NCBI GenBank assembly: GCA_019240525.1
Contig: JAFAYE010000001.1
Span: forward strand, 1,833,300 to 1,897,299
DNA: 64,000 nucleotides
Direction of reading: 5' to 3'
Origin: Candidatus Eremiobacterota bacterium
GTDB lineage: Bacteria; Vulcanimicrobiota; Vulcanimicrobiia; Vulcanimicrobiales; Vulcanimicrobiaceae
Both the position numbers and the translations under genes were made by a program. Of the stretch, positions 21,160 through 35,264 are shown one piece after another; positions within the stretch are counted from its first letter, which is position 1; every line of letters starts with the position of its first letter. Under the pieces are notes generated by a model that ran no database searches, was not told the origin of the DNA, and saw only the letters and a list, made by a program, of their open reading frames with translations.

Positions 21160-22128
21160 GTGAATAAGGCCGCGGTTTTCTTCACTCTGGCAGTGACCTG
21201 TGCGGTCTTCTCGTGTGGAATCGGCTCGCGCGCGCAGGGCCTCGATGGAGCGCCGATCCTCCCTCCTGATAGGTCGCGCATTACGTATGACATCCCGCCT
21301 CAGGAAACCGATCCAAGCATTTCGCGCTATCTCGACGCCGACGTCGTCATCTATCGGCGGAGTGCGGCAGTAACGGCACCCTTGCTGGTATTCTTACCTG
21401 GAACCAATGGGCGCCCCACGAACGTTCGTCGTTTCTTAGATGCCGCGTCGATGGCCGGGTACCGTTCGATCGGACTGATGTATGACGACTCTCCGGCCGT
21501 CAACGTCGTCTGTCCGCGCGACCCAGATCCGCAGTGCAACGAGCATTTTCGGCAGAAGCGCATTTATGGCGACAATGTCACGGGTGTCATTGACGATTCG
21601 CCGGCGGAGTCGATCGTCAATCGCTTGACCAAGCTCTTGCAGTACCTAGCCATGCAACATCCGCACGAAGGCTGGGATGGTTACGTCGCAGGCGGTACAC
21701 TCGATTGGAGCCGTATCGCGGTAGCTGGCCATTCGCAAGGCGCGGGCATGGCGGCATTTATCGCTAAAGATCATGAGGTCTGTAGGGTTCTTCTCTTCTC
21801 TAGCCCGTGGGACTTTCACGCGCCGGACGAACAACTCGCGGCGTGGCTGAGCAAACCGTCGGCGACGCCGCTTGACCGATGGTACGCGGTGTATCACGCG
21901 CGCGAGCCGATGGCCGCACTCATTGCGCGAGCGTACGTGGCGCTCGGCATACTCCCGGCGCAGATTCGTGTGCTCAACCTCGATCCAAATCGAAGCACCA
22001 CCGTTTCGGCGCATGGAGACATGATCTATCACACCAGCGTTGTCGGGGATTTTACGACGCCGTTAACCGCAAGCGGTACTCCCGCGTACATGCCGGACTG
22101 GCTCTTTATGCTCGGGACGCCACGCTGA
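21160..22128 (+). CDS. Exported alpha/beta hydrolase (BPSS1187-like)
   Basis: The 322-residue protein starts with GTG and an exported N-terminus (a Cys at residue 19 sits in AVFSCG, not a perfect lipobox). It has LLVFLPGTNGRPTNVRRFL as oxyanion region and VAGHSQGAGMAAFIA as nucleophile elbow. Late AHGDMIYHTS may hold the catalytic His. These proteins are unassigned hydrolases. Its stop overlaps the rhodanese start as CTGA, so the two are probably coupled. Confidence 0.8.
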   Translation: MNKAAVFFTLAVTCAVFSCGIGSRAQGLDGAPILPPDRSRITYDIPPQETDPSISRYLDADVVIYRRSAAVTAPLLVFLPGTNGRPTNVRRFLDAASMAGYRSIGLMYDDSPAVNVVCPRDPDPQCNEHFRQKRIYGDNVTGVIDDSPAESIVNRLTKLLQYLAMQHPHEGWDGYVAGGTLDWSRIAVAGHSQGAGMAAFIAKDHEVCRVLLFSSPWDFHAPDEQLAAWLSKPSATPLDRWYAVYHAREPMAALIARAYVALGILPAQIRVLNLDPNRSTTVSAHGDMIYHTSVVGDFTTPLTASGTPAYMPDWLFMLGTPR

Positions 22129-22433
22129 AGTCGATATCGGTTGACGAGCTGGCGCGGCGCATCGAGGGTCGCGCAACGCCGTTTTTGCTCGACGTTCGGG
22201 AGACTTGGGAAATGGCCGACGGCGTTATTCCCGGTTCGGTCAATATTCCGATGGACGACGTCGAGCTTCGTCTCCGTGAGGTTCCAGCCGATCGCGACGT
22301 CGTCGTCTTCTGCCATCTCGGCGTTCGCAGCGCACACATCACAAAGAGGCTCAATGAGCTGGGCTACGATCGGGCAATGAACCTGCGCGGGGGCCTCGAC
22401 GCCTGGCTCCGAGCCTTTCCTGTGTCATCCTGA
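22125..22433 (+). CDS. Single-domain rhodanese with apparent CTG start
   Basis: The protein reads KSISVDELARRIEGRATPF and LLDVRETWE, then has the active-site loop FCHLGVRSA with the catalytic Cys, giving a typical 102-residue sulfurtransferase domain. The only AUG-type starts in this frame lie deep inside the preceding hydrolase gene. A CTG at 22125 overlapping the hydrolase TGA (CTGA) gives the standard family start. The last residues (VSS) and the stop codon are supplied by the REP-like repeat beginning at 22421, so the native C-terminus may have been slightly altered. Confidence 0.78.
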   Translation: MKSISVDELARRIEGRATPFLLDVRETWEMADGVIPGSVNIPMDDVELRLREVPADRDVVVFCHLGVRSAHITKRLNELGYDRAMNLRGGLDAWLRAFPVSS

Positions 22434-22532
22434 GCTTGTCGAAGGACGACCCTTCGACTCGCGCTGCGCGCTCGCTCAGGACTGCGCTTCGCGCAGGCAA
22501 AATTGTGTCATCCTGAGCCTGTCGAAGGATGG
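22421..22532. repeat. Composite REP-like palindromic repeat, copy 1
   Basis: The core TCCTGAGCTTGTCGAAGGA (from about 22428) is followed by an inverted unit CCTTCGACTCGCGCTGCGCG ending near 22481, then by TCCTGAGCCTGTCGAAGGAT (about 22511-22530). The same modules occur in the opposite order and strand at 35150-35264, and a single core lies at 34416. The sequence can form strong hairpins and lies between convergent genes, so it may work as a bidirectional terminator. It also provides the rhodanese stop codon. Confidence 0.85.
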
Positions 22533-33007: not shown

Positions 33008-35173
33008 GTGGCGCGCATGCTTCAATTCGGTGTCGCAACGGCCGACCATCAATGCGAAGCCTATGACGGGCGCGACGAGATTCGCGACGTTTGGGAGCGA
33101 GTACGCGGGCTTGTCGCCCGTGGCAAGGCCACCGACTTTTGGAACCGCTATCCTGAAGACATCGAACTGGCGCGCGGGCTCGGCTGCACGATGTTCAGAC
33201 TTTCGCTTTCGTGGGCTCGGCTCGAGCCCGAACCCGGCGAGTGGAACGACGAAGCGTTCGCGCATTATCGCGACGTGTTGCAAGCAATTCGCGACGCGGA
33301 GATGTCGGCGATCGTCACGCTCGTGCACAACACCTGGCCACTCCACGTCCAGGCCGCCGGTCGTGGCGCCGGGCTGCTCGATCCGGGCTTTCCGGATCGT
33401 CTTGCGAGCTTCGCCGATGAAGTCGCAAAGCGGCTCGGCGATCTCATCGCCGACTATGTAACACTCAACGAGCCCGATCAACTCGTCTACGGCTGGATCA
33501 AAGGCTTCTGGATGCGTACCTACGCGATGCCGCCTGGGCAGCCGCCCTATGCCACCGGCGACGAACAGATGGACGACGTGCTCACGCTCATTCCAAATCT
33601 GTTCCGTGCCCATGCCAAAGCTCGTGACGCGATTCGCCGCAGTCGCCCGAACGCACGAGTAGGCACGAACCCACTTGTCTTGGGCCTTCCTCGATGGCTG
33701 CAGCGTTTGATCGACCGCAACGCAACGCAGCTGCAATCGCCCGCGGCCGCAAAGCGGCAAGTGGCCCGCTTTGCGACAGCAGCGATCGTCGAGGGCGGTC
33801 GGGTCGATTGCTCGATCGCGCAGCTCACCATGACCTTGGATCGCCAAGAGCACTCGTTTTTTTCAGAGCCGTACTACTGCACGCCGCTTGCCGCTCTGCA
33901 CGCGAGCACCACTGCTCTTCCCAGCGAGCCCTTGACCTGGCGCGGAAGGATCGCGGTTGTTGCCGCCACGCTGCCGGCGAGCAGCGTCGGGGGCTGGTTT
34001 CCGGCGGCAACGATCGCTTACTTCGATGCGATGCCGGATGCAGTCGCAGCGCTGCGCCACGGCGACGTTGATGCGGTCTTCGACGACGAGGTAACGCTGC
34101 GGGAATATGCCGGCGACGCGTTTGCGCTCACGCCGCTTCCGCGTTCCACGCAGTATTTTGCGGTCGCGATGGCCTTGGGCAGTCGCACGCTGCTCAACAT
34201 CGTCGATCGCGCCATTCGCGATCTGCGACGTCACCATCCGGAGATGCCGATCGCCGACAATCGGAAGACGATCGCGCACATCGGTCGCGAAGAAGCTGCC
34301 GCCGATTCGCACGAGCGGGTTCCCGACATGGATCCCGCAATCGCGCGCATTCGCAAACGCGGCGTGCTGCGCGTCGGCATCCATTCGCACGTGCCGGGCT
34401 TGTGCACGGAACGCACCCTTCGACAGGCTCAGGGTGACAAGAAGGGAGCGCGCTACGAAGGGCTGGAGCCCGATATCGCAAGGCGGGTGGCGCAACTGAT
34501 TTTCAATGATTCAACGCGCGTTGAGTTCGTACCACTGCGCGGCGAGCGCCGTCTGAACGCGACTCGATCGTCGTGGCTGCACGCGCTCTTTACTCTACGC
34601 AAGGCGTTCGGAATCTTTACGACGTTGTTGGGCACCAATTGGTGGAATCTCGGTTTGGCCGGAAAACTGCCGGAGTTTCTCTGTCCGCGCGAATGCGTCG
34701 GGGCGCTCGACTACGTCGGTCTCGACTACTATTGGGGGGTTCCGTCGTTTTGGCCGCGCGAGCTGCACCGGCTCGACGCCGCATCCGACTTTAACTATGC
34801 TAACGCCCCCGTCTGGCCCGATGCGCTCGACCTTATCATCCGCGAAGCCGAGCAAGACTTTCCCGGCAAGCCCATCATCATCATCGAGAACGGCTGCGTC
34901 GCCCGCGTGCCGGGCTTCACTCGCGCGGACTATCTTCGGGCTCACGTTAACGAAGTGCGCAAGGCGTTCGAGCGCGGCGCCCCCGTCGAGGCCTATCTCT
35001 GCTGGAGTATCACGTCGAACCGCGAGTGGGGATTGCGGTTCGACGACGGCAGCGATTTCGGTCTCTACCACATCGATCTCGACACCGATCCGGCCCTGCA
35101 GCGAAAGCCGACCGAATCGAGTAGCGCGTATGCTCAACTCATTGCCGCTCGTCCTTCGACAAGCTCAGGATGA
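33008..35173 (+). CDS. GH1 beta-glycosidase with an inserted, order-reversed solute-binding-protein domain
   Basis: Residues 1-240 are a family 1 glycosidase start (FGVATADHQCEAYDG; acid/base Glu155 in VTLNEPDQ). Residues about 520-705 are its end (LDYVGLDYYWG; nucleophile Glu627 in IIIIENGC; YLCWSITSNREWGLRF). Between them sits an SBP_bac_3-like module in two pieces. About 258-409 is the later part of a solute-binding protein (GGRVDCSIAQLTMTLDR, FFSEPYY, ALRHGDVDAVFDD). About 443-518 is the early part (IARIRKRGVLRVGIHSHVPG, ARYEGLEPDIARRVAQLIF, VEFVPLRGERRL). Normal order is the reverse. No signal peptide is seen, so it appears cytoplasmic. A REP-like core lies in frame at 34416, and the final residues and stop come from another repeat. 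ATG 33017 is an alternative start. Confidence 0.8.
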   Translation: MARMLQFGVATADHQCEAYDGRDEIRDVWERVRGLVARGKATDFWNRYPEDIELARGLGCTMFRLSLSWARLEPEPGEWNDEAFAHYRDVLQAIRDAEMSAIVTLVHNTWPLHVQAAGRGAGLLDPGFPDRLASFADEVAKRLGDLIADYVTLNEPDQLVYGWIKGFWMRTYAMPPGQPPYATGDEQMDDVLTLIPNLFRAHAKARDAIRRSRPNARVGTNPLVLGLPRWLQRLIDRNATQLQSPAAAKRQVARFATAAIVEGGRVDCSIAQLTMTLDRQEHSFFSEPYYCTPLAALHASTTALPSEPLTWRGRIAVVAATLPASSVGGWFPAATIAYFDAMPDAVAALRHGDVDAVFDDEVTLREYAGDAFALTPLPRSTQYFAVAMALGSRTLLNIVDRAIRDLRRHHPEMPIADNRKTIAHIGREEAAADSHERVPDMDPAIARIRKRGVLRVGIHSHVPGLCTERTLRQAQGDKKGARYEGLEPDIARRVAQLIFNDSTRVEFVPLRGERRLNATRSSWLHALFTLRKAFGIFTTLLGTNWWNLGLAGKLPEFLCPRECVGALDYVGLDYYWGVPSFWPRELHRLDAASDFNYANAPVWPDALDLIIREAEQDFPGKPIIIIENGCVARVPGFTRADYLRAHVNEVRKAFERGAPVEAYLCWSITSNREWGLRFDDGSDFGLYHIDLDTDPALQRKPTESSSAYAQLIAARPSTSSG
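34416..34439. repeat. Single REP-like core inside the GH1/SBP gene
   Basis: CCCTTCGACAGGCTCAGGGT followed by GACA matches the core of the repeats at 22421 and 35150. It is read in frame as TLRQAQGDK, placed between the first strand and first helix of the binding-protein half, where such proteins tolerate a loop. Confidence 0.75.
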
Positions 35174-35264
35174 CACAATTGTGCCTGCGCCCTTCGACGG
35201 GCTCAGGATAAACTAGGGCAGTCCTGAGCGAGCGCGCAGCGCGAGTCGAAGGGTCAGGATGACA
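35150..35264. repeat. Composite REP-like palindromic repeat, copy 2 (inverted relative to copy 1)
   Basis: Modules in order: TCCTTCGACAAGCTCAGGAT (about 35152-35171), CACAATTGTGCCTGCGC, CCCTTCGACGGGCTCAGGAT (about 35190-35209), then TCCTGAGCGAGCGCGCAGCG with GCGAGTCGAAGGGTC. Copy 1 at 22421-22532 contains the same modules on the other strand. The first module supplies the last residues (PSTSSG) and the TGA of the GH1/SBP gene. Confidence 0.85.

Follow-up and report, generated by a model that had tools for sequence, protein, structure and literature searches.

A short palindromic repeat is read in frame within a conserved enzyme gene of this Candidatus Eremiobacterota genome, and we think it probable that a CGTC/TGTC-tagged element of this kind entered a loop of the host gene without breaking its frame and has persisted there as tolerated selfish DNA. 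Within the 64,000-nucleotide stretch that was analysed (the window), the sequence CCCTTCGACAGGCTCAGGGT lies at 34416–34435 (+) with zero mismatches and extends as GACA up to 34439, the complete core CCCTTCGACAGGCTCAGGGTGACA (34416–34439, +) having hairpin arms ACCCT and AGGGT as judged from the exact match and from arm covariation over the genomic copies. The codons at 34415–34441 (+) encode TLRQAQGDK (residues 470–478), flanked by GLCTER and KGARYEGLEP in the translation of frame 33008–35173 (+), which is open throughout, and the in-frame reading put forward in the original prediction is therefore correct. With up to three mismatches to the 20-base core there are five copies in the window (shuffle mean 0.01, maximum 1). 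The second copy (35152–35175, +) encodes the C-terminal PSTSSG of the same protein and the stop TGA (35171–35173), made up of the T of this copy and the next GA, so that the stop codon is also repeat-derived, again as had been proposed. A third copy (35190–35213, +) is intergenic and lies shortly 3′ of the host gene, and two more, likewise identified by sequence match, are found on the minus strand at the end of an ORF at 21879–22433 (22427–22446) and about 80 bases past that end (22510–22529). Also 3′ of the host gene, at 35222–35253, lies a longer form of the element whose middle is palindromic (TCCTGAGCGAGCGCGCAGCGCGAGTCGAAGGG).

The host gene (33008–35173, +) encodes a 721-residue GH1 glycosidase with a family-3 solute-binding-protein domain inside it (Pfam GH1, E 5.4e-40; SBP_bac_3, E 7.8e-8; PDB matches). 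The repeat had been placed in the binding-protein half of the gene, and such a domain is indeed present; the protein as a whole, however, is no plain binding protein but a glycosidase interrupted by that domain. The NEP and ENG motifs, which we take to carry the GH1 acid/base and nucleophile, are invariant in the 34 aligned homologues of the host protein, and GH1 beta-glucosidases are the top PDB matches of its AlphaFold model (mean pLDDT 86). The binding-protein insert (about residues 245–520; 33740–34567, +) has its C-terminal part encoded ahead of its N-terminal part, with SBP_bac_3 profile positions 54–118 preceding positions 16–55 in the Pfam match. When the pieces were rejoined in the usual order the binding domain gave one continuous match of 37.4 bits, against 12.6 and 28.0 bits for the separate pieces, and the domain thus appears to be circularly permuted. 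The GH1 glycosidase with the apparently permuted domain is conserved across Eremiobacterota (L099–L142), and a cyanobacterial relative (L142) has a motif order identical to that of the window protein; a protein labelled as Chloroflexi (L176) seems to have no binding-domain insert, and in four others (L021, L022, L023 and L024) the binding segment is without about 80–90 residues (query residues 293–382, approximately), the flanking matches almost adjoining. In the AlphaFold model the repeat peptide forms the turn between strands 466–469 and 482–484 with a local pLDDT of 55, which agrees, at this low confidence, with the loop position assigned to it beforehand.

The loop was compared between GLC and Y-x-GLEP in 22 homologues from the search for relatives and in two more (L015 and L019), the latter being read separately, outside alignment A1. 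This stretch is short in the majority of the 24. Among the homologues compared, the core occurs in the host-gene loop only in the window species and in two others, L017 (genome G013), where there is an additional, extended element, and L018 (G004), where there are more variants. Counting the 11 homologues from the genus, three have the core, three (L002, L003 and L020) have an eroded form (TCGAAGGGTCAGGGTGACACG in L002) and five (L004, L005, L006, L007 and L009) are without the repeat, their loops being 3–10 residues shorter. Loop length is thus lineage-specific, and the extra residues are absent where the repeat is absent, as would be expected if they came with it. No compared homologue outside the genus has a repeat in this loop and none of the distant ones shares the same residues; in a second collection of 80 loci the readable loops were repeat-free except, again, in species of the same genus. 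No copy at this site disrupts the frame, and each of the three forward frames is represented there. Ancient conserved residues can therefore be ruled out, given the repeat-free homologues within the genus and the lack of a repeat in any compared homologue outside it, and the comparison identifies TLRQAQGDK as an insertion. In a gene tree built after the loop had been removed by a text rule (checked in part of the rows) and columns less than 30% filled had also been removed, the repeat-bearing species fall at four places with repeat-free sisters between them, and four gains cost the same as one gain followed by three losses. The loops of L017 and L018 also have in common an 18-residue segment, LATMRATRRIGRAGL(I/V)M, in which the DNA differences are mostly synonymous, suggesting an old, partly constrained long loop rather than pure junk; a search of five genomes gave no convincing source for this segment (E 0.33 for the best other match).

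Beyond the window the element belongs to a large family. The pattern CTTCGACNNGCTCAGG, allowing at most one mismatch, occurs at 213 places in the window genome (G000) compared with four for a reversed control pattern. When 60 genomes were scanned all 18 of the genus carried the repeat (8 to 213 copies each), as did a few from other genera of the family (151 copies in G025, 32 in G019 and 24 in G021), and in most of the rest it was near background. Outside the phylum the exact core was present in two of 12 genomes, with one copy each, and 83 plasmid records matched a 40-base query containing the core (E up to 10), so the core is not confined to Eremiobacterota. Of 169 distinct copies, 128 have complementary bases at all three arm pairs beside the constant middle (mean 47 and maximum 66 in 1000 shuffles), a count made over all copies, most of them without demonstrated coding status; the arms swap C-G for G-C at one pair and T-A for C-G at the next, and vice versa. 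The layout is TGTC, an ATCCT-type arm, the constant middle and a matching AGGAT arm, giving a conserved unit of about 27 nt. Read in reverse orientation the element starts with TGTC in 147 of 181 copies in G000 and 69 of 105 in genome G003, while in the sister genus (G025) the tag is CGTC in 32 of 67 copies and TGTC in 15 of 67. The outer five pairs of the stem form in most copies, with A-T or G-T foremost, and if the stem is taken as 8 bp it has two internal mismatches. The triplets that most often follow the stem are GAG, GAC and TGT in G000, GAC in G003, and CGC and AGC in G025. Neighbours less than 120 nt apart in G000 comprise 28 inverted and 103 same-strand pairs, and seven of ten neighbour pairs in G025 are of the ‘−+’ type, in a sample that omitted most paired places. 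The strand bias in G000 (157 versus 56 copies) is stronger than in most relatives and is partly due to arrays, such as one of 23 core copies (L082; 1902486–1903134 of contig C1), 22 of them in the same orientation, with a largely 25-base period. In its small hairpins, some of them in inverted pairs about 30 nt apart, the element resembles REPINs. A Y1_Tnp gene, the one transposase family looked for, was found in none of the 18 genus genomes, the same search being positive in five of 14 controls. The label ‘REP-like’ in the original prediction hence holds for a CGTC/TGTC-tagged hairpin but not for a transposase-linked GTAG REP.

The original prediction concerned a single gene, and in-frame loop copies turn out to occur in many genes of the genus. 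Copies read in frame are found in IleRS, PGK, PurA, AlaRS, TrmFO and lipoprotein linkers, and in IleRS, PGK and PurA the loop is filled in some species of the genus and empty in others. The inserts measure 72 residues in IleRS (three copies inside one insert in G000), 27 in PGK and 44 in TrmFO, compared with 9, 3 and 11, respectively, in solved structures. The IleRS loop has the core in five of 14 readable genus genomes (G000, G014, G003, G010 and G017), and in G004 and G009 it is core-free but otherwise hairpin-like or lengthened; in three IleRS loci (L196, L198 and L182, from G018, G022 and G004) it is occupied by a hairpin-like sequence (CATCCCGAGCG... or CATCCTGAGCGGAGCGAA) that is related to the element but distinct from it. 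The IleRS element of G014 is GTCATGCTTCGACAGGCTCAGCATGAC and that of its sisters G003 and G010 is its reverse complement apart from one or two bases, the arms being preserved, so that the peptide reads VMLRQAQHD in G014 and VMLSLSKHD in the other two; either an inversion in place or two insertions could account for such a flip. For PGK, 16 genomes were readable, of which G003 and G014 have the core, 11 have a plain loop and three (G006, G009 and G010) have a loop that by eye looks repeat-derived. The PurA loop was unreadable in G013, G005, G007, G004 and G002, making the nine readable genomes a lower bound; among these the core is present in G003 and G014, a form that by eye appears related is present in G016, and six, including G010, are without it, although the PurA of G003 shares 92% identity with that of G010 and 93% with that of G014.

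ORF lists alone overstate the number of intragenic copies in these GC-rich genomes. In G003, where 95 of the 126 exact core places were examined and 30 host ORFs were put through Pfam, 12 of the 95 copies could be placed by Pfam, PDB or homologue alignment inside a matched domain or between two such domains, in 11 genes: AlaRS, IleRS (two copies), PurA, PGK, TrmFO (GidA by Pfam, TrmFO by PDB match), a Rieske oxygenase, an ArsP permease, a transglycosylase/transpeptidase, a GH35-like ORF, an alpha-2-macroglobulin and a BNR-repeat protein. In G000 domain-level placement is firm only for the window gene and IleRS (four core copies), and the majority of the 181 copies read there sit at gene ends, frequently overlapping the stop codon, or outside any long ORF. 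For G025 the ORF list alone, which overstates such counts, places 45 of 57 copies in ORFs of at least 180 residues. The repeat peptide also follows, within a few residues, a cysteine that by eye is lipobox-like in ten ORFs (four in G000 and six in G003), three of which score above the Pfam cut-off; all three are phosphoesterases and two of them are G000 paralogues. A codon-usage score for separating real genes from chance ORFs was tried and dropped, its sensitivity being 0.10–0.50 at 5% false positives; this weak score called as internal none of 152 copies in G000, four of 95 in G003 and none of 57 in G025, far below the support from family matches.

Repeats of this kind are already known, as intragenic REPs and Rickettsia palindromic elements (RPEs) are in print (PMC3733652, PMC2229807, PMC10969869). 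The CGTC-tagged REPs, in the parts of the published account drawn on here, have the tag CGTC or one of its accepted variants (TGTC and CCTC), an 8–9 bp stem with AT at the first and second position and a short unpaired tail that is mostly CCA; inverted dimers predominate, there is no dedicated transposase, and copies occur within genes and at gene ends (PMC3733652). The present element is like them in its TGTC/CGTC tag, its short hairpin, the occurrence of inverted pairs, its intragenic copies (tRNA synthetases included) and the copies that abut or supply stop codons. It is unlike them, as so described, in that the CCA tail was not seen, the stem, if read as 8 bp, has two internal mismatches, and in G000 inverted dimers are not predominant and head-to-tail neighbours are common; Eremiobacterota also lies outside the five phyla given for CGTC-tagged REPs (PMC3733652). 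With reservations, then, we regard the element as a relative of the CGTC type, which works like one and departs from the description in two features. From what the same source says of GTAG REPs, the element shares with them small hairpins and some inverted pairs about 30 nt apart, but unlike those with a RAYT it has no GTAG tag and no accompanying Y1_Tnp gene in the 18 genus genomes (PMC3733652). The RPEs are described as palindromic repeats that have become in-frame parts of conserved housekeeping genes in Rickettsia (PMC2229807, PMC10969869), and RPE-4 and RPE-6 have been equated with CGTC-type repeats (PMC3733652). In the sections of these reports that bear on the matter, the likeness lies in the in-frame fusion within conserved protein genes and the lack of the element in homologues; the RPEs are however about 105–150 bp long, as against units of about 25–30 bp here, often several per loop, and their host is an intracellular alphaproteobacterium rather than uncultured bacteria of another phylum (PMC2229807, PMC10969869). 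No title or abstract among those listed in the literature searches describes such repeats in Eremiobacterota, and searches with the core and its peptides gave no papers; as far as these searches go, what is new is this member, its occurrence in this phylum and, in three housekeeping enzymes, a clear turnover at one and the same loop.

The course of events that we favour is that a short CGTC/TGTC-tagged palindrome multiplied within this genus, moved presumably by an enzyme acting in trans or by hairpin-mediated copying, and that one copy entered the codons for the beta-hairpin turn in the binding-protein insert of the GH1 enzyme. Because stops are absent from four of the core's six frames and the net insert is divisible by three, the gene would have survived, its product longer by about nine hydrophilic residues; the four stop-free frames likewise make survival within genes likely. 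Selection would then retain only copies that are tolerated, in loops, at termini and in linkers behind lipoprotein cysteines, the present loop probably being solvent-exposed and the effect of its lengthening nearly neutral. As the analysis identified no mobile enzyme and, at 75–80% identity, could read no target-site duplication, insertion as a discrete event is something that we infer.

Two possible roles for the intragenic copies deserve consideration, and we hold each to be rather improbable. The repeat peptide might be kept or reshuffled by selection because it is useful as a flexible, hydrophilic spacer, both within loops and after the cysteines of lipoproteins, which would fit the ten lipoprotein-like ORFs, the repeated filling of identical loops and the apparent preponderance, by eye, of LRQAQGD-type frames among coding copies; many species, however, do without the repeat in the same loop, and several frames and orientations are used at one site. 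To much the same low degree, the copies might act as nucleic acid (an mRNA hairpin, a protein-binding site or a recombination site), the peptide then being a by-product: the covariation of the stem is maintained while the arm sequences vary, and both arms of the IleRS element are intact in sister species that carry it in opposite orientation, but the covariation spans copies that mostly have no demonstrated coding role and the eroded copies of L002, L003 and L020 persist without an intact core. A function for the loop peptide or for an mRNA hairpin is possible. Misjoining of repeats into genes during assembly is very improbable: most of the named relatives are metagenome assemblies, but the window genome is in five contigs, one of 2.79 Mb, and in-frame copies are found at the same loops across many separate assemblies. 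That an ordinary variable loop should resemble the repeat by chance is least credible, and we have rejected it, since although such loops vary freely in the family only 0.01 matches are expected in the window and other species of the genus have copies at the corresponding loop.

A bolder reading, which we consider unlikely but worth stating, is that in this lineage the repeat, once an intergenic element, has come to serve as a constant source of exchangeable peptide inserts, with fixed tolerant loops (IleRS, PGK, PurA and the GH1 binding insert) and lipoprotein linkers being repeatedly filled, emptied and flipped, and some inserts being selected as linkers. Were this true, the essential enzymes of neighbouring species would differ largely by repeat-coded loops. 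The filled and empty loops in PurA proteins of 92–93% identity amount to a natural experiment on the effects of inserts in enzymes. Protein-coding palindromes are best known from Rickettsia, where they may easily be explained by weak selection in an intracellular parasite; the same habit in an uncultured soil and peat phylum, where it affects enzymes of glycolysis, purine synthesis and tRNA charging, points to the repeat and the loop, rather than to such a lifestyle, as the cause.
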